Below are positions 3,512-17,448 of a stretch of 64,000 bases of DNA, piece after piece. The stretch comes from Psychroserpens ponticola. Lineage in GTDB: Bacteria; Bacteroidota; Bacteroidia; Flavobacteriales; Flavobacteriaceae. The first letter of the stretch is position 1. Each line of letters opens with the position of its first letter. Below the pieces are notes generated by a model. It was not told where the DNA came from, did not search any database, and saw only the letters and a program-made list of their open reading frames with translations. A program made the translations under genes and the position numbers. The DNA is taken from NCBI RefSeq assembly GCF_023556315.2, contig NZ_CP116221.1, positions 930,001 to 994,000 of the forward strand, given 5' to 3'.

Positions 3512-3529
3512 TTTGGTTGTTGTATAAAT

Positions 3530-3563
3530 ATAAAAAGTCCGACGATATCGTCGGACTTTTTAT
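3530..3563. terminator. 34-bp perfect palindrome, terminator-like or operator
   Basis: The two 17-nt arms are perfect reverse complements centred between 3546 and 3547. The core is AGTCCGACGAT/ATCGTCGGACT flanked by A and T runs, as in a bidirectional intrinsic terminator. However, it sits between two divergent genes, so neither neighbour needs a terminator there. It overlaps a possible -7 box (TATATTTA on the minus strand at 3524-3531) of the MFS gene. An operator is therefore an alternative. Confidence 0.55.
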
Positions 3564-3611
3564 GATTGATTGGTTATATAATTATATTATCATCGCATAT
3601 AGTAAGTCCGA

Positions 3612-3638
3612 CTCTTGAAACAAGAGGTTTGTCTTTTT
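3612..3638 (+). terminator. Small hairpin with T-run
   Basis: CTCTTG (3612-3617) pairs with CAAGAG (3621-3626) over a 3-nt loop. A T-rich stretch follows, ending in TTTTT at 3634-3638. The bases just before it (AGTCCGAC, 3605-3612) repeat the left arm of the palindrome at 3536-3543, so they could pair with its right arm instead. Confidence 0.35.
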
Positions 3639-3713
3639 GTATATAATACGACGCAATTTTGCATGGTTTGTTTTTTATTTACAGTCAAATCTATGAAAAA
3701 AAGGTTTAAGTTG

Positions 3714-3721
3714 TATTTTTG
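3714..3721 (+). promoter_or_regulatory. -7 box (TAnnTTTG) of the DUF1684 gene
   Basis: TATTTTTG matches the Bacteroidota -7 consensus fully and lies 19 nt before the ATG at 3741. No TTG was found at the expected -33 position. Confidence 0.5.
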
Positions 3722-3740
3722 AATACTGAAAACTATAATT

Positions 3741-4346
3741 ATGAAGCCATTTTTAATATTGATTGTATTGGTAAGTACATTTAGTTGTGCACAAGAAAAG
3801 AAACCTATTTTGGGTGAGACTGAATTTCAACGAGAGCTCAATTCAGAATATAAAGACGCAACAAGTTCTCCATTAAAAGACAAAGACAGAAAGCATTTTA
3901 AAGGTCTAGATTTCTTTAAATTTGATTCTTCATATGTTGTGACAGCACGTTTAAAGTTAACACCAGATACAGAATGGTTTGATATGAAAACAACGACTAG
4001 TCGTGTGTCTCCTGAACGTATTTATGGAATTTTGACCTTTGAACTGCAAGGACAAACTTATACATTAAACCTTTATCAAGGTAAAGATGTTATGAAAAGG
4101 GAAGGACTAGAAGATTATTTATTTCTTCCGTTTATTGATGATACTAATGGCGAAGAAAGTTATGGAGGTGGACGTTATATTGATTTGAGAATCCCAGAAG
4201 ATGACACCATTGAGATAGATTTCAACAAAGCTTATAATCCTTATTGCGCATATAACGATAAGTATTCTTGTCCGATTGTACCAAGAGTCAATTATTTAGC
4301 TTTAAGTGTTAGAGCAGGAGTGAAGGCATTTGAAAAACAGGAATGA
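3741..4346 (+). CDS. DUF1684 family lipoprotein
   Basis: The 201-residue protein has a lipoprotein signal peptide (STFSCAQEK, Cys at about residue 16). The body fits DUF1684: an F-x-R-E-L-N-x-E-Y start, a central beta-rich part, the YGGGRYIDLRIP stretch and the C-terminal signature DFNKAYNPYCAYNDKYSCPI with conserved N, P, Y and Cys residues. Its biochemical role is not established. The gene stands alone on the plus strand with its own -7 box and converges on crcB with one base between the stops. Confidence 0.85.
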   Translation: MKPFLILIVLVSTFSCAQEKKPILGETEFQRELNSEYKDATSSPLKDKDRKHFKGLDFFKFDSSYVVTARLKLTPDTEWFDMKTTTSRVSPERIYGILTFELQGQTYTLNLYQGKDVMKREGLEDYLFLPFIDDTNGEESYGGGRYIDLRIPEDDTIEIDFNKAYNPYCAYNDKYSCPIVPRVNYLALSVRAGVKAFEKQE

Positions 4347-4347
4347 T

Positions 4348-4716
4348 TTATTTTACCAAATACATTCCGAAGAAAACTGCTAAGAACCCTACAATAAAAC
4401 TAGCAATGGTGTAAATAGCAAATGAGGTAAAATCTCCTGATCTTAAAAAGATGTGATTCTCATAAGCAAAGGTTGAAAATGTCGTGAAACCACCACAGAA
4501 GCCAGTAGCAAGCAATAGGGTTTGATTAGAAGTTAAGGTGTTGTTTTTTGCAGCCATACCTAAAATGATTCCTATTAAAAGACTACCAATAATATTAGCA
4601 GCAAATGTGCCGTATGGAATGCCGTTTTCAGCATTGTTTAGATATTTTCCAATAATGAAACGAAGTACACTTCCCAAACCTCCACCAATAAAAACGAGTA
4701 TTAATTGTTTGATCAT
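4348..4716 (-). CDS. crcB: Fluoride-specific channel CrcB/Fluc
   Basis: A 122-residue protein with four transmembrane helices, the normal Fluc length. Family motifs are GGGLGSVLRF near the N-terminus, GTFAANIIGSLLIG in helix 2 and TGFCGGFTTFSTF in helix 3, the latter carrying the Phe/Thr/Ser residues of the fluoride pore and the sodium-binding break. Fluc proteins form dual-topology dimers and export toxic fluoride passively. The start shares base 4716 with the stop of the upstream SRPBCC gene (TAATG overlap), so it is translated from a bicistronic message. No fluoride riboswitch was seen upstream of that unit. Confidence 0.93.
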   Translation of the reverse strand: MIKQLILVFIGGGLGSVLRFIIGKYLNNAENGIPYGTFAANIIGSLLIGIILGMAAKNNTLTSNQTLLLATGFCGGFTTFSTFAYENHIFLRSGDFTSFAIYTIASFIVGFLAVFFGMYLVK

Positions 4717-5735
4717 TATTTAATAGCAATATAGATTTCAGTAATCCAATCTGCTGGATTAGGTGTTGCCATAGGATCAGTAAGATAAACTTCTAGCATT
4801 GGTCCTGCTTCAGTAAACTCTAAACTATGCGCTGGAATATAAGCCATTGTTTTATCCCAAGCTTCTTGTAGATTGGCATAATCTCCTTTAAGAACCGTTT
4901 TTACAGTTTTAAAGGGCTCAAGCTGACCAGTAATTATATCAGCTTCGTTTGCCATTATTTTTGAAGTTGTAGGTATACAACAAGAAAACATAACAGCATC
5001 ATTTTCAGTATCCCATTTGTGGTACATTACAAACGGTTTTCCAGCCATAGAGATATTGTTTGTTAATGCATAAGCACCAACCTTAGGTAACATCTCTTGC
5101 ATTTTTTCTTTAAAATTTGACATCTTACATGACGTTGTGTTGTACAAATAAAATCCACCACTATGTTGTGTTACGCCTTCAATATTGATGCTATATTTTT
5201 TCATGTCTGCAACTAGAATACTATCTAGTTTTTCTAATCCTCGTTCAAAATGTGGACCGATTTGTTTTTCCATTCCTCCCATAAAAGTTGAAAACATCTT
5301 AAATCCAAATGGCAAATCTTTGCCTGAAATAGTCCAATTGATTTCTGTTGAGCCATCATTGTTAGATTCTAGTTTCCAAGTAATATCAGATTTAGGGAAA
5401 TCTCCAAATTGCATTTCTTGTGTAATAGATGTGTTACGTTTTGTGTCAATAGTTTTCATTGTACCAACACCATCTTTATCTTTCCAAGAATAGGAACCTC
5501 CAATACCATTAGTTGTATCAGATAACGTAATAATGGTTTCTGGTTTTTCCTCAACCCAAGATGACCATGCTTCCCAGTTTTTGAAATCAATAATATTGTT
5601 ATAAACAACAGCTACTGGAGCTTGAATCGTTCTTGTGCGTTTGACTTCAAAAGAGTTTGGCTGAACTGCAATGTAAATAGCCAAACCTATGATGAGAATT
5701 AGGATTAAAAATAAAATGTATTTAAACGCTTTCAT
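4716..5735 (-). CDS. SRPBCC domain plus GyrI-like effector-binding domain protein
   Basis: I start the 339-residue protein at the ATG at 5735 (MKAFKYILFLILIL). An upstream in-frame ATG at 5768 is excluded because a perfect -7 box (5770-5777) would leave it at or before the transcript start. An N-terminal membrane segment is followed by an SRPBCC/polyketide-cyclase-like domain (about residues 25-180: NIIDFKNWEAWSSW, the family's P-x-x-V-x-x-x-I-x-x-x-x-x-W pattern). The C-terminal half (about 185-339) resembles the GyrI/AraC effector-binding fold. No DNA-binding part is present. The likely role is binding a hydrophobic ligand at the membrane. It is coupled to crcB. Confidence 0.78.
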   Translation of the reverse strand: MKAFKYILFLILILIIGLAIYIAVQPNSFEVKRTRTIQAPVAVVYNNIIDFKNWEAWSSWVEEKPETIITLSDTTNGIGGSYSWKDKDGVGTMKTIDTKRNTSITQEMQFGDFPKSDITWKLESNNDGSTEINWTISGKDLPFGFKMFSTFMGGMEKQIGPHFERGLEKLDSILVADMKKYSINIEGVTQHSGGFYLYNTTSCKMSNFKEKMQEMLPKVGAYALTNNISMAGKPFVMYHKWDTENDAVMFSCCIPTTSKIMANEADIITGQLEPFKTVKTVLKGDYANLQEAWDKTMAYIPAHSLEFTEAGPMLEVYLTDPMATPNPADWITEIYIAIK

Positions 5736-5963: not shown

Positions 5964-5999
5964 TACATACAAATCCCCAATTTTGGGTATTTGTATGTA
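5964..5999. promoter_or_regulatory. Palindromic site A (proposed response-regulator operator)
   Basis: The core TCCCCAATTTTGGGTA (5974-5989) is one of five copies of a 7-2-7 palindrome in this locus. Here it extends to a 36-nt near-perfect inverted repeat with one mismatch outside the central pair. It lies 17 nt after the stop of the LRR gene and 60 nt before the micropeptide ATG. A terminator role is the alternative, but no T-tract follows on the minus strand. Confidence 0.5.
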
Positions 6000-6016
6000 A
6001 GTTCAATATACTTTTT

Positions 6017-6710
6017 TTATTGTTTAATAAATCGTTTGGTAGCTGTTTTACCATCTATGTTGATGTGAATTAGATAAACACCAGAAGCTAATTGATCAAC
6101 AGCAATTGCTGTAACTTCAGAAGTTAATTGTTTTTCAAATAGTAATTTACCATCAATATCAAATACTTGTGCTAGAGCATTAGTTCCTGAGTTGGTTTTT
6201 ATCGATAACCAATTACTCGCTGGATTTGGGAATATTTTGAAGCTTTCATTTTCAAAATCTTCAGTGTTTAAATTACTATCTACAGTCACATTAATATCTG
6301 CTCTAACGACAGTGAGATCTGGAACTAAAGGATTAGTAATCTCACAATGGTAAACTCCACTATCAGATTCTTGAGCGTTTACAATGGTGTACGTGTTTGC
6401 ATTAGCACCACTAATGGCTACATTGTCTTTATGCCATTGGTATACATTATTTGGTGAAGGGGCTTGAGAATCTCTATTGATATCTGTGTTATTTACATCT
6501 AGAGAGATATCTACTCCAGGAGGTGATGTGATTTCTTCTTCATCGTCTAGTGTGTTTTGAGGCGAGTATTGTAATGAACCATAGGTAATACCATTATTTA
6601 CTAATGGTTCTAGATCACTGAAAGTATAGTAATTATTTCTCAAATCGATGCTAACATATTCTGGATTGTCAAATGATGTCCATTCTGGAAGTGGTCCTGA
6701 TAAATTATTA
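6017..6710 (-). repeat. Duplicated 3' segment of the LRR paralogues (copy 1)
   Basis: These 694 bases are nearly identical to 8911-9604 (constant offset 2894). They encode the last LRR flank, the Ig-like domain and the T9SS tail of both proteins. Differences cluster at about 6168-6195. Similarity falls sharply upstream of 6710, which suggests recent duplication or gene conversion restricted to the 3' end. Confidence 0.9.
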
Positions 6711-8863
6711 CTGTATACATCAAAAGACAAAGGAGATGTTAAATTGTCTAATTCAGAAGGAATTGTACCACTAAGGTTATTGTTGTCTAATCTTAAATAG
6801 TTTAACTCACTTAAGCTCCCTAAACTAGTTGGAATTTCACCTTCTAGCTGATTAACTCGTAAAGACAAAGTAATCAGTTGATTTAAGTTGTCTAAGTTTG
6901 AAGGTATACTGCCAGTCAATTGATTTTCGCTAAGATTTAGATATTTTAAATTTGATAAAGCACCAATTACTGCAGGTATTTCTCCAGTAAGACTATTAGC
7001 TTGTATTCTTAACCAGCTTAACTCTGTTAGATTACCAATAGTTATTGGTATTGGTCCAGTTAATGAATAATTGAAACTGATACTTAATTCTTTTAGGTAG
7101 ATTAAATCACCTATTTCATCAGGTAATTGTCCATTAAGATTTTGAAAAGTCAGATTTAAAGACACAACTTTATTTCCTAGAGTTTCAACACCAGTCCAAT
7201 TGTCAACATGCGCAGATGTTGTCCAATTCCAATCCTCATTATTTGTCCAGAAATCACCATTTGTAGCATTGTAAATGGCAATTAGTGCTTCTCTTTCAGT
7301 TTGAGATACAGGAGTTCTGAATTTTATTTTTTTACGTTCCAGAATTAATTCAGGGATAACAGAGCTTGTTACAATACAAGAATAGGTTAACAAATCCTCT
7401 TCTTGGAAATTAGTAATTGTATATTCGGAGTTTGTAGCTCCTGAAATTTCTTCAATTTCTATATTATTAAGACCCATTACTTCTTTAATCCATTGATAAC
7501 TTAAATTAGTGCCTTGCGTTATAGCGGTTAAAGTGTAATCATCACCATAGACAGGATTATCAATTTCTATCAAATCATTAAATGAATTTTGCGGATAGTA
7601 ATTAAACACGTTTGATGCAGTATTTGCAATAAAATTAGGCTCAAAATCAGCAAAAGAAAAGTCATTTTGTCGTAGGTTAATAAACTCAAGACTTGTTATA
7701 CTTGAAAAGTCAGGGATAGTTCCGCTTAAATGATTATTAGACATACTAAGCGATTCTAAAAAAGTTAAGTTAAGTATGGAATTTGGAATTTCACCTGTAA
7801 GATTTTTACTGCCTAACTGTAATGAAACTACATGTCCATTTTCAACTGTAACACCTTGCCAAGAACTAACAGGATCATATACTGAAAGCCAATTTATATT
7901 TGAAGTCCAATAAGGACCTTCGGTTGCATTGAATAAATCAATTAATGCTTGTTTTTCACTATTTGGTGGTTCTAAATCAAATGTAAATACAGATTCCTCA
8001 AATTCATCAGGTCTATGAATTAGTATATAATAAGACTGTCCACTAGTGATATCATAATCTACATAATTTTGAGTTGAACAAGATAAACTTGATGCTAGAG
8101 TTAATTCTGATTCCGATGTAACGTTTAGATTGGGAGCTTCATAAATCATGACAAAAGATAAGTCAGAAAGACTACCTGATGGACCATTGTCATTGTAAAG
8201 AGTTGTAATAAGTCTTGTATCTGATGCTGCAGTAAATTTATAATAGAGACCTTTTGTGTCAGGAGTACTGCATCCAATTTGTCCACCAGGACTTTCTTCT
8301 GCATAATCTATTCTTAAATTTTCATCCGAAAAAATTGAAGTAGTAATTTCTGTAGCATTTAATAATGAACCATTAATTGGAGGTATAACTTCTTCTATGT
8401 TTATTTCGACTCTTGACACTGCATTAGTTTCTGATCTACTTATTACTAGATAATATGATTGACCAGTTTCTACGTAAGCATTTCTAAATGAACTAGAAAC
8501 ACATCCAGATATATTTTCAATCAACTCTGACTCAGATGTAACATTGAGGTTAGGAGCAGAATAAAACAAAACTAAGCTATTACTATTTGGAATATCCGAG
8601 CCATCTTGATTTTTTATAATTGCGGAAACATCACCAGTAAATGAAGTGGTGAATTTGTAATAAATAGATTTATATCCATTAGAACCACAAATACCGCTAG
8701 AAAATCCTGAAGCTTCCGAAGCTAAATCAAGACGAAGATTGTCATCTATAAATGAAGTTTCAGTAATTTCTATGGCATTCTCAATAGTATCATTTATTGG
8801 AACTTGACATAAAGAAGTGAAAGATATCAAAAGGGCTAGCAGAAAAAGTGAATATGTTTTCAT
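6017..8863 (-). CDS. Leucine-rich-repeat T9SS cargo protein (long paralogue)
   Basis: A 948-residue secreted protein. A Sec signal peptide ends in SFTSLCQ (about residue 20). Two tandem copies of a beta-rich module follow (about 22-155 and 165-297, each opening with an A-x-E-I-T motif and carrying NLNVTSESEL). Then come plant-type LRRs (about 310-400), an Ig-like segment (about 420-515, ending YSCIVTS), a second LRR block (about 530-760, LTGEIPxxIG type) and a second Ig-like domain (about 775-865, YHCEITN). The protein ends with a type A T9SS sorting domain (FKIFPNPAS to KRFIKQ). It should be exported and attached to the surface or released, with the LRRs likely binding a partner. It lies 47 nt downstream of its shorter paralogue and probably shares its promoter. 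Confidence 0.9.
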   Translation of the reverse strand: MKTYSLFLLALLISFTSLCQVPINDTIENAIEITETSFIDDNLRLDLASEASGFSSGICGSNGYKSIYYKFTTSFTGDVSAIIKNQDGSDIPNSNSLVLFYSAPNLNVTSESELIENISGCVSSSFRNAYVETGQSYYLVISRSETNAVSRVEINIEEVIPPINGSLLNATEITTSIFSDENLRIDYAEESPGGQIGCSTPDTKGLYYKFTAASDTRLITTLYNDNGPSGSLSDLSFVMIYEAPNLNVTSESELTLASSLSCSTQNYVDYDITSGQSYYILIHRPDEFEESVFTFDLEPPNSEKQALIDLFNATEGPYWTSNINWLSVYDPVSSWQGVTVENGHVVSLQLGSKNLTGEIPNSILNLTFLESLSMSNNHLSGTIPDFSSITSLEFINLRQNDFSFADFEPNFIANTASNVFNYYPQNSFNDLIEIDNPVYGDDYTLTAITQGTNLSYQWIKEVMGLNNIEIEEISGATNSEYTITNFQEEDLLTYSCIVTSSVIPELILERKKIKFRTPVSQTEREALIAIYNATNGDFWTNNEDWNWTTSAHVDNWTGVETLGNKVVSLNLTFQNLNGQLPDEIGDLIYLKELSISFNYSLTGPIPITIGNLTELSWLRIQANSLTGEIPAVIGALSNLKYLNLSENQLTGSIPSNLDNLNQLITLSLRVNQLEGEIPTSLGSLSELNYLRLDNNNLSGTIPSELDNLTSPLSFDVYSNNLSGPLPEWTSFDNPEYVSIDLRNNYYTFSDLEPLVNNGITYGSLQYSPQNTLDDEEEITSPPGVDISLDVNNTDINRDSQAPSPNNVYQWHKDNVAISGANANTYTIVNAQESDSGVYHCEITNPLVPDLTVVRADINVTVDSNLNTEDFENESFKIFPNPASNWLSIKTNSGTNALAQVFDIDGKLLFEKQLTSEVTAIAVDQLASGVYLIHINIDGKTATKRFIKQ

Positions 8864-8910
8864 TTGAGGTAACAGAATTGATTAATAATAGTTTGAATCC
8901 GATTTTTAGT

Positions 8911-9604
8911 TTATTGTTTAATAAATCGTTTGGTAGCTGTTTTACCATCTATGTTGATGTGAATTAGATAAACACCAGAAGCTAATTGATCAACAGCAAT
9001 TGCTGTAACTTCAGAAGTTAATTGTTTTTCAAACAGTAATTTACCATTAATATCAAATACTTTTGCATTAGTATTTATATTTGAGTTGGTTTTTATCGAT
9101 AACCAATTACTCGCTGGATTTGGGAATATTTTGAAGCTTTCATTTTCAAAATCTTCAGTGTTTAAATTACTATCTACAGTCACATTAATATCTGCTCTAA
9201 CGACAGTGAGATCTGGAACTAAAGGATTAGTAATCTCACAATGGTAAACTCCGCTATCAGATTCTTGAGCGTTTACAATGGTGTACGTGTTTGCATTAGC
9301 ACCACTAATGGCTACATTGTCTTTATGCCATTGGTATACATTATTTGGTGAAGGGGCTTGAGAATCTCTATTGATATCTGTGTCATTTACATCTAGAGAG
9401 ATATCTACTCCAGGAGGTGATGTGATTTCTTCTTCATCGTCTAGTGTGTTTTGAGGCGAGTATTGTAATGAACCATAGGTAATACCATTATTTACTAATG
9501 GTTCTAGATCACTGAAAGTATAGTAATTATTTCTCAAATCGATGCTAACATATTCTGGATTGTCAAATGATGTCCATTCTGGAAGTGGTCCTGATAAATT
9601 ATTA
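8911..9604 (-). repeat. Duplicated 3' segment of the LRR paralogues (copy 2)
   Basis: Partner of 6017-6710. The copies differ in a short block that codes for the turn before VFDI(D/N)GKLLFEKQL and in scattered single bases. Direct orientation means recombination between the two copies would delete about 2.9 kb and fuse the two genes. Confidence 0.9.
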
Positions 9605-11352
9605 TTGAATACTTCAAAAGAATAAAGAGATGTTAAATTGCTTAGTTCAGAAGGAATTGTACCTGATAAAATATTGTTCCCTAAACTTAGACTATTTAAG
9701 CTACTTAGGTTCCCAATACTTGCTGGAATTTCACCCGATAATTGATTGTTTTCTAGAATTAATTGAATCAATTCAGTAGCATTTCCTAAACTAGAAGGTA
9801 AATTTCCAGTTAATTGATTGTAACTAAGGTAAAGTCTATTTAGTAGAGGAAGATTCCCTATTGACGCAGGTATCTCTCCTGAATGACCATTATTTTGTAA
9901 TCTTAGCCATTGTAATTCAGTAAGGTTACCTAATGATGATGGAATTGGTCCAATTAAGTCAGGATTAGCACTTACTCTCAATTCATTTAAATGAATTAAA
10001 TCTCCAATTTCTTCAGGTAATTGGCCATTGAGATTTCTGAAATTTAGATTCAAATAGACCACTTTATTACCTAAAGTCTCCACACCAGTCCAAGTGTCGA
10101 CATGGGCAGAAGTATTCCAGTTCTCAATGATAACACCAGTTCCTATCGTATCATACCAATTGTCTCCATCTGTAGCGATGTAAAGTGCAATAAGTGCATC
10201 TCTTTCAGATTGTGAAATTGGAACTCTAAATTCGATACTTTTTCTTTCAATTGTTAAGCCAGGTACTAATGGACTTGTAACAAAACAAGAATACGTTGAG
10301 CCATTTTCTAATTGAAAGTTTGAAATTATATAATCACTGCTATTTGCTCCTACAACGTTTTCAATAATTGGATCGTATAAATTTGCAGCCCTTTTTACCC
10401 ATTGATAGTTAATATTTGTACCTTCTTGAGGCGTCATGCTAAGAGTATAGTCTTGACCAACTACTGGGTTTTCTATTAATATATATTCATCTACTGTATT
10501 TTGAGGAGAGAATCCAAAAAAATCAATTGTTGAATTAGCTACAAAATTAGTTTCAAAATCAAGTATCGAATAGTTATTATTATTTAGTCTTAAATCATCA
10601 AAGTTTGATAATGTTGAAAAATCAGGAATAATTCCACTTAGATTGTTATAAGTGCAGTTAAATGAATTTAAAAACTCAAGATTTAAAATGGAATTTGGTA
10701 TCTCACCAGTTAAATTTTTATTCCAAAAAGATAATCTAATGACATGGCCTTCTTCAACTGATACATACTCCCAATCTTTAATTGGAACATTATTAGAGAG
10801 CCAATTATCAGAAGAAGTCCATAAAGGGCCATTAGTAGCATTATAGAAATCAATTAAAGCTTGTCTTTCAATTTGTGGAGGATCTTGTTCAAAAGTGAAA
10901 GTGCTTCTAGCAAATTCACGATCTCTGTTTAACAAGATATAATAATTTTGTCCATTTATAATGTCGATATTTACTGTAGACTGTAGACCACAAACAAAAC
11001 CAGTAACTGCGGTTAATTCACTTTCTGAAGTAATATTGAGGTTAGGAGCTTCATATATATTAATAAAAGTACTACCACTTCCTGAAATAGGATTATCAGT
11101 ATCATCAGTAAGTTTTGTGAAAATTTTAGTATCTGCATCAGCAGTGAATTTATAGTAAACAACCTTATCTGTTGTAGGACATCCAACTTGTCCACCAGAA
11201 CTTTCACTAGCTAAATCTAAACGAAGATTTTCATCAACAAAGGAGTTCTCTGTAATTTCAATGGCATTTTCTATAGTATCGTTTATTGGAACCTGAGAAA
11301 ATGCTGTTGTATAAATAAATAAAGCAATGAGGGAAAGTAAAATTCTTTTCAT
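8911..11352 (-). CDS. Leucine-rich-repeat T9SS cargo protein (short paralogue)
   Basis: An 813-residue secreted protein with a signal peptide ending TTAFSQ (about residue 20) and one copy of the N-terminal beta-rich module (about 22-157). It then has a first LRR block, an Ig-like segment (YSCFVTS), a second LRR block, a second Ig-like domain and a type A T9SS sorting tail. It differs from its neighbour in having one N-terminal module instead of two and in its diverged LRR surface residues, while the tails are almost identical. It is the first gene of the pair and carries a TATATTTG box and palindromic site B upstream, so it probably drives both genes. Confidence 0.9.
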   Translation of the reverse strand: MKRILLSLIALFIYTTAFSQVPINDTIENAIEITENSFVDENLRLDLASESSGGQVGCPTTDKVVYYKFTADADTKIFTKLTDDTDNPISGSGSTFINIYEAPNLNITSESELTAVTGFVCGLQSTVNIDIINGQNYYILLNRDREFARSTFTFEQDPPQIERQALIDFYNATNGPLWTSSDNWLSNNVPIKDWEYVSVEEGHVIRLSFWNKNLTGEIPNSILNLEFLNSFNCTYNNLSGIIPDFSTLSNFDDLRLNNNNYSILDFETNFVANSTIDFFGFSPQNTVDEYILIENPVVGQDYTLSMTPQEGTNINYQWVKRAANLYDPIIENVVGANSSDYIISNFQLENGSTYSCFVTSPLVPGLTIERKSIEFRVPISQSERDALIALYIATDGDNWYDTIGTGVIIENWNTSAHVDTWTGVETLGNKVVYLNLNFRNLNGQLPEEIGDLIHLNELRVSANPDLIGPIPSSLGNLTELQWLRLQNNGHSGEIPASIGNLPLLNRLYLSYNQLTGNLPSSLGNATELIQLILENNQLSGEIPASIGNLSSLNSLSLGNNILSGTIPSELSNLTSLYSFEVFNNNLSGPLPEWTSFDNPEYVSIDLRNNYYTFSDLEPLVNNGITYGSLQYSPQNTLDDEEEITSPPGVDISLDVNDTDINRDSQAPSPNNVYQWHKDNVAISGANANTYTIVNAQESDSGVYHCEITNPLVPDLTVVRADINVTVDSNLNTEDFENESFKIFPNPASNWLSIKTNSNINTNAKVFDINGKLLFEKQLTSEVTAIAVDQLASGVYLIHINIDGKTATKRFIKQ

Positions 11353-11384
11353 TTGAAAAAATGATTAAATGATTAATAGTTAGA

Positions 11385-11433
11385 CAAATATAGAAAATAA
11401 TTTATATTTAAAATCCCCAATTAAGGGGATTTT
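11385..11433 (-). promoter_or_regulatory. Promoter with palindromic site B upstream of the LRR genes
   Basis: On the minus strand a TATATTTG box (plus 11385-11392) lies 32 nt before the ATG at 11352. The palindrome core TCCCCAATTAAGGGGA (11414-11429, hairpin 11410-11433) is 21 nt upstream of that box. It thus occupies the place of the missing -33 element, as expected for an activator site. The hairpin followed by TTTT could also end transcription of the upstream lipoprotein gene. Confidence 0.5.
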
Positions 11434-11525
11434 TCTAAGTTGGCTATAATTGATTCTCCCTATAGAGTATTAGTATACCAACTCTAAATAATTAGCGTTT
11501 TGCCTATTTTTTTGTTGTCAGGAGT

Positions 11526-12374
11526 TTATTCTGGACAATTCACAGCAATATCCCAAGCTGTACTGCCTCCAATACATCCAGAAACGTAAATGTCTAACTC
11601 TTTACCATTTGAAGGATTGTATTGAAACTCAAAGTATCCAGATTGTCCAACATAGCCATCTTCAACGGCATCAAAACAATTCATTATTGGAGGGAATTCG
11701 TTTTGACCAAGAGGAGAACCTGTTCCATCAATCCATTGTCCTGCATAAAATAAATCGATTCGATCTACAATACTATAAGTGTCATAGCTTATGATAACGT
11801 TTCCACTATTTTCTCCCATGTCATAAGTGAAAATAGTTAATCCGTCACTTCCGCTTTCAAATCCAGGACAGGTTTGTGGTGGTGCAATGGTAACATAGGT
11901 TTGTAATACATTACTAATATTTCCCTGACTATCATATAAGCAATATGCTAGTGTGAAATTTCCTTCTAAAATATTGTTTGGAATTCCAACAGGAATTATT
12001 AACTGACCACTGCTATTATTACTAGGTAAATTAATATCCCAATAAATATTTGCACCTACGACTTGTACATAACATCCTGCATAAAAATTATTAGCACCTG
12101 TTGTAGCAAAATTAAATGGAAGGTATAACGTGTTATCTACAGTAGTTGTTGCTGAAGTTTGATTGTTGGTAGCTGCTGGAGCATTTCCGTTTTGAGATGT
12201 AGGAGGAGGATTACCATTTGTGACATCTCCAGTAATAATTAAAGCACGAGCTAATGCGTTAGAATTTGAAGGGTCGATAAATTCCTTTTCTTCTGAATCA
12301 CTTCCGTCAGAACTACAATGGATTAATGAAAAACCCATAAATAGTAAAACGAGAATAGTTTTGATTTTTTTCAT
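11526..12374 (-). CDS. Surface-type lipoprotein of unknown function
   Basis: I do not recognise a family in this 282-residue protein. It has a lipoprotein signal peptide with SLIHC and Cys at about residue 21. The Cys is followed by SSDGSDSEEKE, an acidic patch like the lipoprotein export signal that sends Bacteroidota lipoproteins to the outside of the outer membrane. A low-complexity Pro/Asn/Thr linker (about residues 52-82) precedes a beta-rich region with six Cys residues that could form disulfides. The palindromic site C lies 84 nt before its ATG, which groups it with the LRR and outer-membrane genes. Confidence 0.65.
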   Translation of the reverse strand: MKKIKTILVLLFMGFSLIHCSSDGSDSEEKEFIDPSNSNALARALIITGDVTNGNPPPTSQNGNAPAATNNQTSATTTVDNTLYLPFNFATTGANNFYAGCYVQVVGANIYWDINLPSNNSSGQLIIPVGIPNNILEGNFTLAYCLYDSQGNISNVLQTYVTIAPPQTCPGFESGSDGLTIFTYDMGENSGNVIISYDTYSIVDRIDLFYAGQWIDGTGSPLGQNEFPPIMNCFDAVEDGYVGQSGYFEFQYNPSNGKELDIYVSGCIGGSTAWDIAVNCPE

Positions 12375-12455
12375 AATTAAATAATTTGTTGGTTAATATT
12401 AATTCTCGCTATAAATTAATAGCTTTATAAAAATAGGAAAATTAATGTTAAAGAA

Positions 12456-12477
12456 AAATACCTAATATTGGGTATTT
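12456..12477. promoter_or_regulatory. Palindromic site C (proposed response-regulator operator)
   Basis: The core TACCTAATATTGGGTA (12459-12474), inside a 22-nt palindrome with one G-T wobble, is the best match to the consensus. On the minus strand a TATTTTTA box follows after 23 nt. It lies 20 nt after the stop of the outer-membrane gene and 84 nt before the lipoprotein ATG. Confidence 0.55.
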
Positions 12478-12497
12478 ATGATATCAGTTAGGCCAGG

Positions 12498-13814
12498 TTA
12501 TTTCCTATAGATAGGTACTTTTAAACCAAAAAATACATCAGTAGTTTTTGAGCTATCTGATAAGAGATTACTAAAAATTGAACCAGAACCAACACTTAAT
12601 GGTCCAAGTCTAAAGCCTCCTCCAAAAGCAAAATCACCATATTGCCTGAAACTTAATGGTGTATAAAAACTAAACCATTTCGTTTCTAATCTTGGAGCTA
12701 TAGTTACTGTATTGATTATAGAACTAGCAAGATCATTTTCTTTTTTTACTAGAGATAAATTTGCTTGAGCACTCACCAGCCATTTTTTTGCTAATCTATA
12801 ATCTACTAGCAAATGCAAAGCTGTTGGTAGTTGAATTTTGGTATCTTCAATAACATCTGTATTATTATAGTTATCATCAAGAAACTCTTCTAAATCATCA
12901 AATGAAGAAGCATCAACGGTGTTATTCATATTGTAAGTTGTTCGTTCTGCATTTTTATATTTAATCGACCCTATGTCAGTTATAGCAATACCTGCTTTTA
13001 GTTTGTAATGATCTTTATAAATTGGCGTGCTATCATCTTCTCTATTAGGATGCCATTGGTATGTGAATCCTAAATCTAAGCCAAAACCAGCAGTTAGATT
13101 GTCGAACCCTAAATCATCTGAATCAAAATCCTCAGTAGTACCATAATTAAGTTCACCTTGCGTCGTTAAAGTTTCGGTTACATTATTATATTGTCCCGTT
13201 AATCCTGGGCTATTTGTGAATAAAGCACCTGCACCTTGCAGATATTTTAGAGTTACACCACCTTTTAAGATATGATTTTGTTTGTCCATTAATAGTCTTC
13301 CATAGGCAATTCCAATTTCTGTCCAAGCATGAATAGTTCCGTTCAAATTTTGTGAACCAAATGCAACATTGCTATCCGATTCGAAATCATCTTCAATAGC
13401 CTCAAAGAGTTCTCCATTGATATTATTTAAATTAAAAAAAACTCTAGCTCTTGTAATAATACCAATGCTACTCTTTTTATTAATGTTAAACATAAATGAA
13501 GGGCCTAAAATATCTGTATTCAAAAAGAAATTATTCTTATCACTAACAAAGCGTTCAGAATCTTCATCGACATCAAAATTACCACTTAGTATACTACTAA
13601 AGTTAATTCCAAAATAATCACTACCAGTAAATCCACTAACTGATATTAAATTTACATCAGTTTTGAAGTTTGAACCAAAAATATTGGATGGATTATGAGT
13701 AACGCCATGAATACCAGAGTAATTATCGGCATTATATCCAATGTAACTTTGTGAAAAACTCTCATTAAAGAGAAGTACTGATAATAATAAGAAAAGCGAT
13801 TTAAATATTTTCAT
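12498..13814 (-). CDS. Outer-membrane beta-barrel-type protein (DUF5723/PorP-like)
   Basis: A 438-residue protein with a cleavable signal peptide (ending NESFSQ, about residue 22). It then has alternating hydrophobic and polar strands with many Gly and aromatic residues, and ends in a short strand FFGLKVPIYRK, as outer-membrane barrels do. The opening GYNADNYSGIHGVTHNPSNI fits the DUF5723 type, in which a mature N-terminal H-x-P-x-N-I motif is common. PorP/SprF relatives anchor or assist T9SS surface structures, so a role with the neighbouring LRR cargo is plausible but inferred. It has a degenerate copy of the palindrome 64 nt upstream. Confidence 0.6.
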   Translation of the reverse strand: MKIFKSLFLLLSVLLFNESFSQSYIGYNADNYSGIHGVTHNPSNIFGSNFKTDVNLISVSGFTGSDYFGINFSSILSGNFDVDEDSERFVSDKNNFFLNTDILGPSFMFNINKKSSIGIITRARVFFNLNNINGELFEAIEDDFESDSNVAFGSQNLNGTIHAWTEIGIAYGRLLMDKQNHILKGGVTLKYLQGAGALFTNSPGLTGQYNNVTETLTTQGELNYGTTEDFDSDDLGFDNLTAGFGLDLGFTYQWHPNREDDSTPIYKDHYKLKAGIAITDIGSIKYKNAERTTYNMNNTVDASSFDDLEEFLDDNYNNTDVIEDTKIQLPTALHLLVDYRLAKKWLVSAQANLSLVKKENDLASSIINTVTIAPRLETKWFSFYTPLSFRQYGDFAFGGGFRLGPLSVGSGSIFSNLLSDSSKTTDVFFGLKVPIYRK

Positions 13815-13878
13815 ATTAGAGTTTAGTTTGTTAATTAATATTTATGATAAAAACAGATAGTTTTTGTGCTTTTGAATA

Positions 13879-13894
13879 TGCATAATATAAGGTA
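13879..13894. promoter_or_regulatory. Degenerate palindromic site E
   Basis: TGCATAATATAAGGTA matches 13 of 16 consensus positions. One half-site is intact (AAGGTA); the other is weak. It lies 64 nt before the outer-membrane gene start and 15 nt after the response-regulator stop. It forms no stable hairpin, so it is unlikely to be a terminator. Confidence 0.35.
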
Positions 13895-13909
13895 TATTTT
13901 TTTGATATT

Positions 13910-14533
13910 TTAAAATTTATATTTCTTTTCCAAAGCATATCTCATCAGCTCTCCTTTACCTTGAAGACCTAAAATACGTGCCATGTTTTTGCGATGGGTA
14001 TCAACGGTGTGAATACCTATAAACAATTCATCAGCTATTTCCCTTGAGGTTTTACCTAATGCGATTAGTTGAAGAATTTCAATTTGCCGTTTTGTTAAAA
14101 GTCCCTTTTTTTTCGAATTGTTTTCAGGATTGAGGACATTGGTATTGATGTTAGCATCAAAATAGATTTCTCCTTTTGCTACGGTTCTTATAGCCTTCAA
14201 AACTTCTTTGAGTGAAGAGTTTTTTAAGACATAGCCTGTTGCTCCAGCGTCTAGCATTTGTTGGATGGCTTCAGTTTGTTCAAACATAGAAAATGACAAG
14301 ATTTTGATTTCAGGATGCGCCTTTTTTATTCGTTTTGCGGCTTCTATTCCATCTAATTTTGGCATTCTTATATCTGTAAGTACAACAGTAGGACGCTTTT
14401 TTTCTACAATTTTTAATAGAGCTTCGCCATCATTAGCTGTGCCAACAATGGAAATGTCTTCTTCATATTCTAATAGAAGTGAAATGCCATCAATTAGCGA
14501 TTGGTGATCTTCTGCAATGGCTAGTCGTATCAT
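13910..14533 (-). CDS. NarL/LuxR-type response regulator
   Basis: 207 residues, standard NarL-family length. The receiver domain (about 1-120) has acidic pocket E8-D9, phospho-acceptor D54 in VVLTDIRMP, the conserved Ser/Thr region SFSMF and Lys in YVLKNSS. A LuxR-type helix-turn-helix follows (about 142-205: LTKRQIEILQLIALGKTSRE, then HTVDTHRKNM as recognition helix). It is phosphorylated by the kinase encoded just upstream, whose stop overlaps its start by four bases (ATGA). It is the best candidate to bind the 7-2-7 palindromes in this locus, one of which precedes its own operon. Confidence 0.92.
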   Translation of the reverse strand: MIRLAIAEDHQSLIDGISLLLEYEEDISIVGTANDGEALLKIVEKKRPTVVLTDIRMPKLDGIEAAKRIKKAHPEIKILSFSMFEQTEAIQQMLDAGATGYVLKNSSLKEVLKAIRTVAKGEIYFDANINTNVLNPENNSKKKGLLTKRQIEILQLIALGKTSREIADELFIGIHTVDTHRKNMARILGLQGKGELMRYALEKKYKF

Positions 14534-16392
14534 ATTGGAATATCTATTATTATGGTTGTTCCTTGATTTTTATCAGATTCAATAGTCATTGTGCCATCCA
14601 AATGTGCAACACGTTTATCAATACTGCTAATTCCCATACCTTTATTTGTTTTGGTAATCTGATTTGGATTAAAACCTATACCGTTATCTTCAACCATGAT
14701 GTTTAAGCTTTCATCATGATTAGTAATGTGGACTGTAGTTTCATTGGCTTCTGCATGTTTTATAACATTTGTAACAAGTTCTTGAATAATTCTAAAAATG
14801 GTAAGTTCTAAGCTGTTTTCTAAGCGATTTTCTAATCCATGATCTATAACATCTATAGTGATTTTGTTAGATGCTGAAACTTTTTCTGCCATTTGTTGAA
14901 CAGCTAACAATAAACCTTGTTTAGCAATAACACCAGAGTTTTTTGCATGAGCAACGGATCTTACTTTTTGATATGCTTCATCAATTAGAGTATTTGTTTT
15001 ATCATAGAGTTCAGGTGTGTTTTTTTCTTTTAGTGCATTAAAATGAAGTTTTACAGTTGCGATTAAACCACCTAAATCATCATGTAAATCGTTAGCAATA
15101 CGTTGCCGTTCTTTTTCTTGACCTTCAATCATGGCATCAATAGTGGTAAGTTCTTGTTCTTTTAAAACTGTTGCGAGTTTTTGAGTTTCTAGTTCTTTTT
15201 CTTTCTCTGCTAGATTCTGTTTGCGTTTGGTGTTTTTGAAAAGGAGGAAAGCGATGATACTCACTAATGCCAGACCTACTGCCAAACCTATTGAGATGTT
15301 TTGATTTTGTTTCCTTTTGGCTTCGCTTTCTAAATTTGAAGCTTTTAGTAATAAATTTTCTTTCTCTTTTTTTTCGGTTTGGTATTTGGTTTCAATTTCA
15401 GTTAGCTGCAATGCGTTTTCGTATTCTTTATGTTGTTTTATTGCTTCCTTTTCCATATTCAAATAGAAATAAGCGCTGTCGTAATTTTTTAAATTTTTAT
15501 GAGTTTGTGCTAAAGCTAAATATAAATATGATTGTTGTAAAAAACCATTTTTAGGAATGTCTTGTTGAATTGCTTTATCAAAATAATATAAAGCTTTTAT
15601 CGGTTCATTATTATAATTATGAGCTGCAGCTAGATTATTATAAATACCAAACATACTGCGTTTGCCTAAAACTCCTGGTACTTTTGTGAAGTAATTTTTG
15701 GCTTTTTGAAAATGCTTAATTGCAGAATCATTTTGTTTATTAAAATGACTTTCTTGATTGCCAAGCATAACATTGAGTTTACCTTTTAAAAAGTCGTTAT
15801 CAATGTTTTCAAGTAATTTTAGTCCATTTAAATATATTGGAATGCATGGCTTATTTTCAATAAAGGACTTAGTTGTATATTTATAATAATCATAAACCAC
15901 CTGGTCACTTGGAGTTTTTATATAATTACTGTATATATTATTGTATTGGTTCAATACATCATAAGATTTTCTTTTATAAAATAAATACTTCAATATTTTA
16001 TTCAAAGAATATTTAACTAATATGCTATCGTTTTGGTGTTTTGAAAGCTCTACAGCTTTTTTGTACTTTTCAAAAATGATTGAATCTTTATTGATATAAA
16101 ATTCATTATAGATATCTGCTTCTTTTATTTCATTTAACACAACTCCAAAATGGGATTCATCTTTACTTTTGGTTTGGTCAACTAGACTATCTTTTATTCC
16201 GTAATAGAATGCATCGAGATGCCAAATTAAGTTCTTACGTTCTTGAGATTCTGGTATTGTTTTAATTTTATCATAAGCTTTTTCAATATTGTTGTATAAA
16301 AGGTACTCAAGTGTTTGATGTAACTTTTGAGTGTTTTGAGAGTCACAAGCTACACTGTACATTAGAACTGAAATTAGTAAGATGAGTCTCAT
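14530..16392 (-). CDS. TPR-containing sensor histidine kinase (HisKA_3 type)
   Basis: I start at the ATG at 16392 (620 residues), because MRLILLISVLMYSVACDSQ is a lipoprotein-like signal peptide. An in-frame ATG at 16422 would add ten residues and overlap the upstream gene. A long TPR-like helical region (about 40-350) is probably outside the cytoplasm. One membrane helix (GLAVGLALVSIIAFLLF, about 368-386) leads to a coiled coil. The HisKA_3 domain has ERQRIANDLHDDLGG with the phospho-acceptor His. A HATPase domain follows with N box (ELVTNVIKHAEA), G1 (VEDNGIGF) and G2 (GMGISSI). This is the kinase class that pairs with NarL-type regulators. There is no PAS or known ligand domain; the TPR part or the Cys-rich partner may sense the signal. 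Confidence 0.88.
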   Translation of the reverse strand: MRLILLISVLMYSVACDSQNTQKLHQTLEYLLYNNIEKAYDKIKTIPESQERKNLIWHLDAFYYGIKDSLVDQTKSKDESHFGVVLNEIKEADIYNEFYINKDSIIFEKYKKAVELSKHQNDSILVKYSLNKILKYLFYKRKSYDVLNQYNNIYSNYIKTPSDQVVYDYYKYTTKSFIENKPCIPIYLNGLKLLENIDNDFLKGKLNVMLGNQESHFNKQNDSAIKHFQKAKNYFTKVPGVLGKRSMFGIYNNLAAAHNYNNEPIKALYYFDKAIQQDIPKNGFLQQSYLYLALAQTHKNLKNYDSAYFYLNMEKEAIKQHKEYENALQLTEIETKYQTEKKEKENLLLKASNLESEAKRKQNQNISIGLAVGLALVSIIAFLLFKNTKRKQNLAEKEKELETQKLATVLKEQELTTIDAMIEGQEKERQRIANDLHDDLGGLIATVKLHFNALKEKNTPELYDKTNTLIDEAYQKVRSVAHAKNSGVIAKQGLLLAVQQMAEKVSASNKITIDVIDHGLENRLENSLELTIFRIIQELVTNVIKHAEANETTVHITNHDESLNIMVEDNGIGFNPNQITKTNKGMGISSIDKRVAHLDGTMTIESDKNQGTTIIIDIPI

Positions 16393-16396
16393 CAAA

Positions 16397-16972
16397 CTAA
16401 TTGATATCAACAATTTTTCCAAAGCATATGAATGGTGGGTAAATACCTTCGGCTGGAGTTACTATTCGTGGATCATCATCAGACGTTATTCTAATATTAA
16501 AATCATCTCCAATTTCAAATTCGAAACTAGTATTTAGATCTGCGTGATTGGGTGTTCCATTTTCATGGTATTTATTTATTTTATACTCAATATTATGCCC
16601 GTTTGAATCTTTCAGATAGCTAACACTCTCAATTTTCCAGCGGTTACATTTACCTACTTCTAATAATTCAAAATCAATCTTAGAAATCTTTTTTGAGTTG
16701 TTTTCATCTAGATATATTTGCCCAAGAATTCCATAACTATTCAATATATCATATTGAAAAGGTTGAAAATTGGAAGTGTCTGCACTATTGATTTTAAAAG
16801 TTAAATCACTGTTTAAAGGCATGTTTATTTCTCTGACTTCTTCACCTTTACAAGGTTCACAATACGTGCAATCAGTTTGAGTGTCGTCGCATTCTACATT
16901 ACATAATTTGTAACCTAAATAAAGGGAAATAATGACTAATGCAATTGTAATTAGTAACATTTTTGATTTCAT
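16397..16972 (-). CDS. Cys-rich membrane-anchored protein of unknown function, first gene of the kinase operon
   Basis: I do not recognise this 191-residue protein. An N-terminal membrane anchor (about residues 5-21) is followed by five closely spaced Cys (24, 28, 35, 38, 41, including CTYCEPC), and then a predicted beta-rich domain with two more Cys. The short Cys cluster just outside the membrane could bind metal or form disulfides. Its stop is four bases before the kinase start, so the two are co-translated. A sensory or accessory role for the kinase is inferred from position only. Palindromic site D lies 60 nt before its ATG. Confidence 0.65.
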   Translation of the reverse strand: MKSKMLLITIALVIISLYLGYKLCNVECDDTQTDCTYCEPCKGEEVREINMPLNSDLTFKINSADTSNFQPFQYDILNSYGILGQIYLDENNSKKISKIDFELLEVGKCNRWKIESVSYLKDSNGHNIEYKINKYHENGTPNHADLNTSFEFEIGDDFNIRITSDDDPRIVTPAEGIYPPFICFGKIVDIN

Positions 16973-17032
16973 AAGGATCGAATTTAGTTGGTATTTGATA
17001 TCAAAGATGCGAAATAGGAAAACATCATAACA

Positions 17033-17048
17033 TACCCAATTCTAGGTA
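17033..17048. promoter_or_regulatory. Palindromic site D upstream of the two-component operon
   Basis: TACCCAATTCTAGGTA has both outer half-sites (TACC and GGTA) intact and an imperfect centre. On the minus strand a near -7 box (CATCTTTG) follows after 23 nt, the same geometry as sites B and C. It implies that the response regulator controls its own operon. Confidence 0.5.
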
Positions 17049-17125: not shown

Positions 17126-17311
17126 TTAAACAAAAATTGATTTAATTGTAGCAATCATAGCTAAAAAAGAAACAAAAGCAATTAAAATCCAGATACTACC
17201 TTTGTAATATTTTTTATGGATCTTGATATCTTTTCTATATGCAAAAAAAATAATTACAATAAATGCAATTGCAAATAAAATCCCAAAAATCAATTGACCA
17301 TTACTAAACAT
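17126..17311 (-). CDS. Small membrane protein with two transmembrane helices
   Basis: Sixty-one residues from the ATG at 17311 (MFSNGQLIFG). There are two hydrophobic helices (about 8-23 and 38-57) with a basic loop between (YRKDIKIHKKYYKG), so the loop is likely cytoplasmic. A longer frame from 17350 is rejected because a perfect -7 box (minus-strand TATTTTTG, plus 17327-17334) lies inside it. No family function is known to me. Confidence 0.6.
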   Translation of the reverse strand: MFSNGQLIFGILFAIAFIVIIFFAYRKDIKIHKKYYKGSIWILIAFVSFLAMIATIKSIFV

Positions 17312-17448
17312 ATAGCTATTTTTATACAAAAATAAATAATACGACTGCAAATTTCACATAAATCACGTTAATGTTTGTGAATTTTGTAATTTAAATGGTA
17401 ACATAATAAGGCATAGATATTTAATTTTAAAAAAAATAGAATCAAAAA

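Follow-up and report, generated by a model that had tools for sequence, protein, structure and literature searches.

What do five similar palindromes do in a stretch of the Psychroserpens ponticola genome that encodes a histidine kinase, a response regulator and several probable surface proteins? The stretch of DNA analysed here, hereafter the window, is 64 kb long (G000:C1:930001-994000, G000 being the window's own genome). According to a Pfam scan, its minus strand carries an operon that encodes a Cys-rich protein (191 aa), a histidine kinase and a NarL-type regulator (207 aa). Behind it on the same strand come the genes of a DUF5723 protein, of a probable lipoprotein and of two leucine-rich-repeat/immunoglobulin-like (LRR/Ig) proteins sorted by the type IX secretion system (T9SS). 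A first-pass annotation had proposed an autoregulated NarL-type system with 7-2-7 operators (inverted heptamers around a 2-bp spacer) before surface-protein genes, and the comparative data support this core claim well. Judging from sequence, it is very likely that the locus is an autoregulated two-component island with NarL-type 7-2-7 operators at the class II position and adjacent surface-protein targets. No earlier description of the operator or the island was found by title and abstract in the open-licence literature.

All five palindromes lie where the annotation had placed them, and their distances to the next minus-strand ATG (60, 61, 84, 64 and 60 nt for sites A to E) were also given correctly. 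The statement that A, C and E stand 15-20 nt after a stop codon had to be revised, the actual distances being 27 nt for A, 23 nt for C, 15 nt for D, 77 nt for E and 96 nt for B. The sites and their -7 boxes are as follows, the offset being the distance in nt from the palindrome to the start of the box.

Site E, 17033..17048, minus strand: predicted operator of the accessory/kinase/regulator operon, TACCTAGAATTGGGTA; second-best window score, 21.6.
Site E -7 box, 17002..17009, minus strand: CATCTTTG; offset 23; box score 9.8.
Site D, 13879..13894, minus strand: 15 nt past the regulator stop, before the DUF5723 gene; score 1.8.
Site C, 12459..12474, minus strand: predicted operator, minus strand TACCCAATATTAGGTA; highest window scores.
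Site C -7 box, 12428..12435, minus strand: TATTTTTA; offset 23; box score 6.0.
Site B, 11414..11429, minus strand: likely operator of TCCC form with A-/T-tracts, TCCCCTTAATTGGGGA; score 19.7.
Site B -7 box, 11385..11392, minus strand: TATATTTG; offset 21, 2 nt under the rule; box score 8.8.
Site A, 5974..5989, minus strand: operator-like core in a long hairpin; score 20.3; no box at 22-24.

The site scores come from a weight matrix built from 167 distinct sites in 80 related loci, none of them from the window's genome. Sites C (22.9 on the plus and 21.3 on the minus strand), E, A and B are the window's top positions, the best position apart from the five sites reaching 10.4 and D ranking 25th. 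Relative to the consensus of the first-pass annotation, C has no mismatch, A and E have one on the better strand, D has three and B more than three. We regard E and C as firmly predicted operators; relatives carry operators at the position of E, and the 16-mer of locus L052 is identical to it. Site B is likely an operator as well; it is the sole TCCCC-N6-GGGGA of the whole genome, and relatives have the TCCC form behind the regulator. Site D, whose -7 box is weak (TGTTTTTA), reads as a decayed operator copy, since 39 good boxed sites lie at most 40 nt past the regulator in the 80 loci. Site A has no credible gene behind it and is a probable transcript end or relic; the idea that it drives a micropeptide, a 27-codon open reading frame (ORF), was rejected for want of a -7 box or other promoter support. 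Contrary to what had been assumed, the five sites are thus not equivalent: A combines the lack of a box with a long hairpin, D has decayed from a site that relatives keep in good form, and, of the -7 boxes reported at B, C and D, those at C and B stand while that at D is only weak.

The operator is conserved in sequence, spacing and position across the 80 loci (1.39 Mb, kept out of 407 relatives), which come from Psychroserpens, Winogradskyella, Algibacter, Maribacter, Leeuwenhoekiella and other Flavobacteriaceae, the regulators of the named relatives being 66-90% identical. Comparison of orthologous loci, which the annotation had put forward as a check, shows the operator recurring in front of orthologous operons with a constant spacing to the -7 box. 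TACC-N8-GGTA occurs 152 times in these loci against 17.7 expected, with at least one occurrence in 79 of the 80, and every other gap from 0 to 30 yields 6-35 occurrences. Although ORFs cover 84% of this DNA, 140 of the 152 palindromes lie outside them; 140 also lie either 5-2 kb before or 0-3 kb after the end of the regulator, and just two are found in 290 kb of upstream flank. A TAnnTTTG-like box starts 22-24 nt off, on either side, at 130 of the 152. The offset is exactly 23 in 123 places, the next most frequent being 0 (34 places), where T-tracts lie, and no control palindrome ATGG-N8-CCAT has a box at offset 23. Among 39 sites in 18 sequences (the window's first 20 kb and 17 loci), TANNTTTG, counted at five or more of six bases on one or both sides, stands at offset 23 in 36 and at 22 in three, with at most four cases at any other offset. 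The consensus reads AAATA-TACC[C/T]NNTANN[G/A]GGTA-TTTTTT, then the box, and the spacer centre is T in 87% and A in 94%. Within the heptamer, TACC followed by C or T is kept, the sixth base is A (58%) or T (23%) and the seventh T (37%) or G (36%); the consensus heptamer of the NarL family is TACYYMT. Many boxes depart from the ideal, with T in 54% and C in 31% at the first position. A second form, TCCC-N8-GGGA, was found 60 times against 2.8 expected; 57 of these are intergenic, 33 have a box at 22-24 and 55 lie 0-8 kb behind the regulator.

The operator also co-occurs with the regulator across genomes. In a family sample of 199 genomes from 198 genera, in which the regulator was called at E<=1e-60 and the best 15 candidates per genome were scored, 43 genomes carry it. 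The strict operator-plus-box pattern gave 42 sites in 28 of the 199 genomes and none in the reversed controls, and it is present in 24 of the 43 genomes with the regulator but in only 4 of the 156 without (Fisher p=1.9e-15). In G148, one of these four exceptions, the regulator is cut at a contig end, with 73% identity over 101 residues. Within the genus, regulator relatives at 81-90% identity occur in 14 of 21 other genomes, and the remaining seven have best matches of only E 1e-25 to 1e-35. A genus listing, filtered by hand to TACCY-N6-RGGTAT with the filter set after the consensus was known, retained 50 site directions, many of them at the regulator locus itself; they fall in 14 of the 15 genomes with the regulator, G011 being the exception, and in none of the seven without. 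G037, which was not among the genomes searched for the regulator, has no filtered site.

Several observations weigh against the proposed operator and its link to the regulator. Three pattern-positive genomes (G055, G090 and G198) have regulator relatives of only 34-42% identity, and 19 of the 43 regulator genomes lack a strict site. G000 itself is among them: the centre of site E is GA where the family pattern has TA, the box of site C has A in place of G, and site B is 2 nt short. Before filtering, TACC-N8-GGTA with TTTG 26-28 nt on gave 82 matches in the 23 genus genomes against 98 reversed controls. Among the 50 filtered site directions, four palindromes are counted in both directions and nine belong to paralogous kinase/regulator pairs (G010:C9, G013:C20 and G015:C14); the strict family site G138:C1:1508858 likewise adjoins such a pair, and paralogous pairs have the same core and spacing with related palindromes. 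The strict box TAnnTTT[GA] is present at just one of 76 operon-zone sites, because operon boxes mostly start with CA. As a separate observation, palindromes with TTGAC directly after them, like an abutting -33/-35 element, were seen at G090:C9:74060, G123:C1:466473, G138:C1:1875507, G149:C1:408554 and G198:C27:17676; these may belong to another regulator.

The genes of the island are the following.

Accessory Cys-rich protein, 191 aa, 16397..16972, minus strand: first operon gene, part of the proposed input cassette; no Pfam family.
Histidine kinase, 14530..16395, minus strand: variable helical sensor resembling tetratricopeptide repeats (TPR), membrane helix, HisKA_3/HATPase transmitter.
NarL-type response regulator, 207 aa, 13910..14533, minus strand: receiver and GerE helix-turn-helix (HTH), by Pfam and alignment.
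DUF5723 protein, 12498..13814, minus strand: predicted target; PF18990 1.4e-37.
Probable surface lipoprotein, 282 aa, 11526..12374, minus strand: predicted target, from sequence.
T9SS-sorted LRR/Ig protein, 813 aa, 8911..11352, minus strand: predicted target; PF18962 3e-14, LRR_14 5.7e-17.
T9SS-sorted LRR/Ig protein, 948 aa, 6017..8863, minus strand: PF18962 2.7e-13, LRR.

The kinase gene (HisKA_3 5.4e-7, HATPase_c 8.1e-16 in Pfam) lies upstream of the regulator gene and overlaps it, a TTG at 16422 being a possible alternative start. The regulator matches the Pfam receiver (PF00072, 1.7e-26) and GerE HTH (PF00196, 2.5e-14) families, and its nearest solved relatives in a PDB comparison are VraR (E=1.2e-33), DesR and NarL. 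D54 and K104, which we take to be the phospho-acceptor Asp and the conserved receiver Lys, are unchanged across 18 aligned regulators. The DUF5723 protein is probably located in the outer membrane, and the 948-aa LRR gene, 47 nt behind the 813-aa LRR gene, is probably co-transcribed with it. The Cys-rich protein and the lipoprotein had no tblastn match among the 80 related loci. MazG and BCAT genes stand upstream in 58 of 70 full-length loci, so that the chromosomal address of the island is mostly fixed. A small membrane protein (17126-17350 of the window, minus strand, median 63% conserved) is encoded beside MazG and is found in 58 of the 70 full-length loci. Beyond the island, 4716-5733 (minus strand) encodes a polyketide-cyclase-like domain fused to a GyrI-like domain, and homologues of this protein lie downstream of the regulator in 36 of the 80 loci.

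Based on these features, we propose the following hypothetical mechanism, in which (i) the membrane kinase would read a signal via its TPR-like helical domain, which is probably located outside the inner membrane; (ii) the kinase would phosphorylate the NarL-type regulator; (iii) a regulator dimer would bind TACCYNN-TA-NNRGGTA (7-2-7), centred about 43.5 bp before the start site; and (iv) the bound regulator would help sigma-A RNA polymerase where the TAnnTTTG box starts 23 nt past the palindrome. The targets would be its own operon (E), the lipoprotein (C), the two T9SS LRR proteins (B) and, formerly or weakly, the DUF5723 protein (D). The existence of a signal, phosphorylation, direct binding and activation are what we infer here. 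The sigma-A -7 box of Flavobacterium psychrophilum lies at -12 to -5 (PMC9723704), which with an offset of 23 places the palindrome at -51 to -36 and its centre at -43.5. In Escherichia coli, NarL binds the engineered 7-2-7 site TACCCCTAAAGGGGTA (PMC4549865), and a single site at -44.5 suffices for activation by NarL alone (PMC9314961). By analogy, the regulator of the island would act from a class II position as NarL does, the polymerase holoenzyme being a different one.

The alternative that survives best is an unlikely one in which operator and regulator are the same but the dimer, abutting or overlapping the -33 region, blocks polymerase. The first-pass annotation had stated that no TTG stands at -33, as for an activator that replaces this contact. 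This is borne out only in part: a TTG near -33 (at most 9 nt after the palindrome) is present at only 23 of 94 non-operon sites but at 37 of 67 operon sites. At the latter, polymerase might thus need no help, and NarL itself represses some promoters (PMC4549865). However, the scarcity of TTG at non-operon sites favours activation over repression, and a centre near -43.5 is the usual position of a class II activator, E. coli NarL acting at -44.5 at ogt1052. Activation is therefore probably the mode of action.

Somewhat less probable still is that the palindromes are real operators of another regulator, either a paralogous NarL-type protein or an island protein with a LuxR-type HTH. Paralogous pairs (L066-L068, L222 and L070) do have TACC-N8-GGTA sites with the same spacing. 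Those of L066-L068 and L222 are TACCTAA-N2-TTAGGTA or close to it, and several are flanked by boxes on either side. In the window's own genome, a second kinase/NarL-type pair has TACCATAATTATGGTA at L070:3243-3258 (G000:C1 ~873242) with a -7 box 23 nt away, between 2584-3204 (minus strand) and 3288-5171 (plus strand) and pointing towards the gene of a 206-aa protein whose tail is T9SS-like. Moreover, the 72 genes found behind operators encode 11 GerE-HTH proteins, besides 11 proteins with a T9SS sorting tail, 8 with DUF5723 and 8 with LRR_4. Against this, the sites of the paralogues differ from the consensus in their inner bases, the sites of the island cluster round this regulator gene in 79 of 80 loci and track it family-wide, and no gene with a LuxR-HTH only was seen among the ORFs and Pfam matches of the window's island. 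The paralogous sites suggest a wider rule in which the inner eight palindrome bases would set regulator identity. The LuxR-HTH targets, such as L055:5109-5537 (minus strand) and L058:7406-7813 (plus strand), both without a receiver domain, perhaps form a second control tier.

It is quite improbable that the palindromes play no part in initiation and act as intrinsic terminators or other RNA hairpins where genes end. Sites A, C and D do lie 27, 23 and 15 nt past stops, and A and B fold at -18.1 kcal/mol (with 14-nt flanks) and -13.3 kcal/mol. The stem of A is long and has no T-run, B joins a strong stem to TTTT and C a weak one (-5.2 kcal/mol) to TTTTT, and the form of an intrinsic terminator, a GC stem and then a T-run, was not seen at E and D. 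T-runs of at least five are present at 36 of 52 distal in-island sites (median fold -13.1 kcal/mol), but they occur at only 17 of 65 operon sites, 7 of 40 post-regulator sites and 2 of 15 unlinked site directions. Terminators would also leave unexplained the -7 box fixed at 23 nt, the co-occurrence with the regulator and the sites boxed on both sides. A terminator role is likely at site A, and site B possibly acts as a terminator in addition to its predicted operator role. Distal tandem sites differ from the other distal and unlinked sites in T-runs (p=0.004), but T-runs are common at distal sites whichever the setting (29 of 39 and 7 of 13), and a dual terminator and operator role of the distal in-island sites is suggestive only.

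Chance palindromes in AT-rich intergenic DNA are scarcely credible as the general explanation, even though a genome-wide search with the consensus at three mismatches shows no enrichment (154 matches on the forward strand, 262 for the reversed control), as the independent matrix ranks four of the five sites top, 9 bits over the next position, and the sites are conserved across 80 loci. This speaks against chance at B, C and E; chance may apply to D as a present-day site. The enrichment that the annotation had expected thus holds for the window, with 15 matches at up to three mismatches against 5.8 expected (15 or more in 1 of 100 shuffles), and not for the genome, where the reverse strand gives 147 matches against 271 in the control; since the reversed control has more matches, loose matches carry no meaning. 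TACC-N3-TA-N3-GGTA alone gives five sites and five reversed controls in the window's genome, in which the consensus is matched exactly only at site C and at G000:C1:2442216. Neither this distal candidate, whose box matches at 5 of 6 bases and stands some 500 nt away from the next gene, nor G000:C1 2424520, at which we saw no box, counts as a confident target.

The autoregulated island with activating operators, our preferred reading, appears to extend to unlinked genes. At G000:C1:2476866, operator and box precede a gene whose 562-aa product has a signal-like start and falls into no Pfam family. This gene is present in 5 of 23 genus genomes, all with the regulator; G000 and G013 have the operator directly in front of it, G012 has the operator ahead of the first gene in the operon to which it belongs, and in G019 and G015 no operator was seen upstream. 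A gene with a WCGPC motif, which we take to be thioredoxin-like, carries the operator in G001, G018 and G014. A second variable slot, with a retained operator and different genes behind it in different genomes, was noted at G001:C22:35691, G009:C1:46011 and G007:C11:4314 (L197, L200 and L202), beside a gene that is presumably HAD-phosphatase-like.

More surprising than the regulon is what surrounds its core. Compared with the window's kinase, 76 kinases show a median identity of 80% in the transmitter (431-630) and 18% in the sensor (1-370), and even at the 13 nearest loci the values are 85% and 19%. An AlphaFold2 model of the kinase (36 sequences; mean predicted local distance difference test, pLDDT, 81; predicted template modelling score, pTM, 0.55) has a helical solenoid at about 37-300, and a long helix runs through the presumed membrane segment. 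For the transmitter, the best Foldseek matches are DesK, with VraS within the top 50. The name TPR rests on Pfam matches below the cut-off and on helical pairs.

The accessory genes between operator and kinase vary in a similar way. By simple ORF calls, which in L127, L145 and L178 count a kinase fragment as accessory, they number 0, 1, 2 and 3 in 8, 32, 13 and 17 of 70 loci. One class consists of a small membrane protein, a trypsin-like protease and a small protein with a conserved tail; others are a lipoprotein-like family, a family ending in a Cys-containing tail and a papain-like C70 protease. Proteases between operator and kinase are exemplified by L062:3478-4515 (plus strand, trypsin-like) and L065:15938-17158 (minus strand, papain-like, C70). 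Eleven of the 110 accessory proteins collected from relatives were scanned, of which nine gave nothing above the cut-off, one was trypsin-like and one papain-like. The best profile match of the window's Cys-rich protein to these classes has a probability of only 11%.

Sensors go with accessory genes. Their similarity averages 155 bits within an accessory class and 37 bits between classes (0 of 500 shuffles as high), and this gap persists in all three bins of regulator identity. On the tree of transmitter and regulator (75 loci, of which 53 were labelled and 22 left out because they had no called accessory gene or a rare one), the accessory class changes at least 21 times, which equals the lowest value among 200 shuffles (mean 26.5, sd 1.9), so that it tracks the core only weakly; on the sensor tree it changes five times. 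Both are quick trees under a simple model. Sensor and accessory genes therefore seem, from these sequence comparisons, to be an input cassette repeatedly exchanged round a constant core of transmitter, regulator and operator. Accessory proteins that are otherwise dissimilar, each encoded by the last gene before the kinase, were also seen to share a short C-terminal tail, for example KKGNILVGNP or KKKSEVQGLP, the carriers including L062:4533-4952, L113 (the equivalent of the 4533 region), L118, L124 and L158. The pattern [STN]x[IVL]xGxP, chosen after the tails were inspected, matches the tail of 16 of 63 last accessory proteins, nothing in the rest of those proteins and one of 73 targets, and it is absent from the window's Cys-rich protein.

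Comparison with known systems places the island close to several of them. The E. coli NarL 7-2-7 operators (ogt1052, yeaR and the engineered narG -89 site) share with it the inverted heptamers, the outer TACC/GGTA and the 2-bp spacer, with a centre at -44.5 at ogt1052 compared with about -43.5 in the island. In contrast to E. coli, the island has a Bacteroidota sigma-A -7 box instead of -35/-10 elements, a strongly kept TA spacer, a helical TPR-like sensor and surface proteins as targets. The E. coli sensors NarX and NarQ respond to nitrate. VraSR and DesKR also pair a HisKA_3 kinase with a NarL-type regulator and include the closest solved relatives; they differ from the island in sensor, operators and hosts. 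ComA of Bacillus is likewise a regulator of the NarL/LuxR type. The ComQXPA pherotypes resemble the island in having variable upstream genes and a variable sensor half next to a conserved remainder (PMC6334282). However, the sensor of the island is a helical solenoid, its accessory genes include trypsin-like and papain-like proteases and lipoprotein-like proteins, and the comparison made here is between species and not between strains. Since no ComQ-like or ComX-like protein was detected among the few accessory proteins scanned (the window's Cys-rich protein and 11 of relatives), we consider this a likeness and not membership. Among Bacteroidota two-component systems, FimS/FimR of Porphyromonas gingivalis is comparable in that FimR binds and activates the mfa1 fimbrial promoter (PMC1974823). 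PorY/PorX/SigP also ties two-component control to T9SS (PMC4800418). It acts on the secretion machinery via a sigma factor, whereas the predicted targets of the island are T9SS cargo with a sigma-A-like promoter box.

We tentatively hypothesise, as a possibility that we hold to be clearly less probable than not, a pherotype-like system of Flavobacteriaceae in which input cassettes are swapped by recombination round an unchanging kinase core, regulator and operator, surface-protein outputs are equally changeable and A-/T-tract operators double as insulating terminators. A cassette would then consist of accessory proteins and the matching helical sensor, including in some species a protease and a small protein with a G-N-I-L-V-G-N-P-like C-terminal tail.

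In summary, the island gives a concrete picture of how operator and promoter are arranged for a NarL-type regulator in Bacteroidota, from which members of the regulon would be predictable by sequence. Both the input and the output of this signalling node vary while its place in the chromosome stays mostly the same, and comparison of neighbouring species would thereby allow a direct test of how bacteria change what they sense without rewiring of the core.

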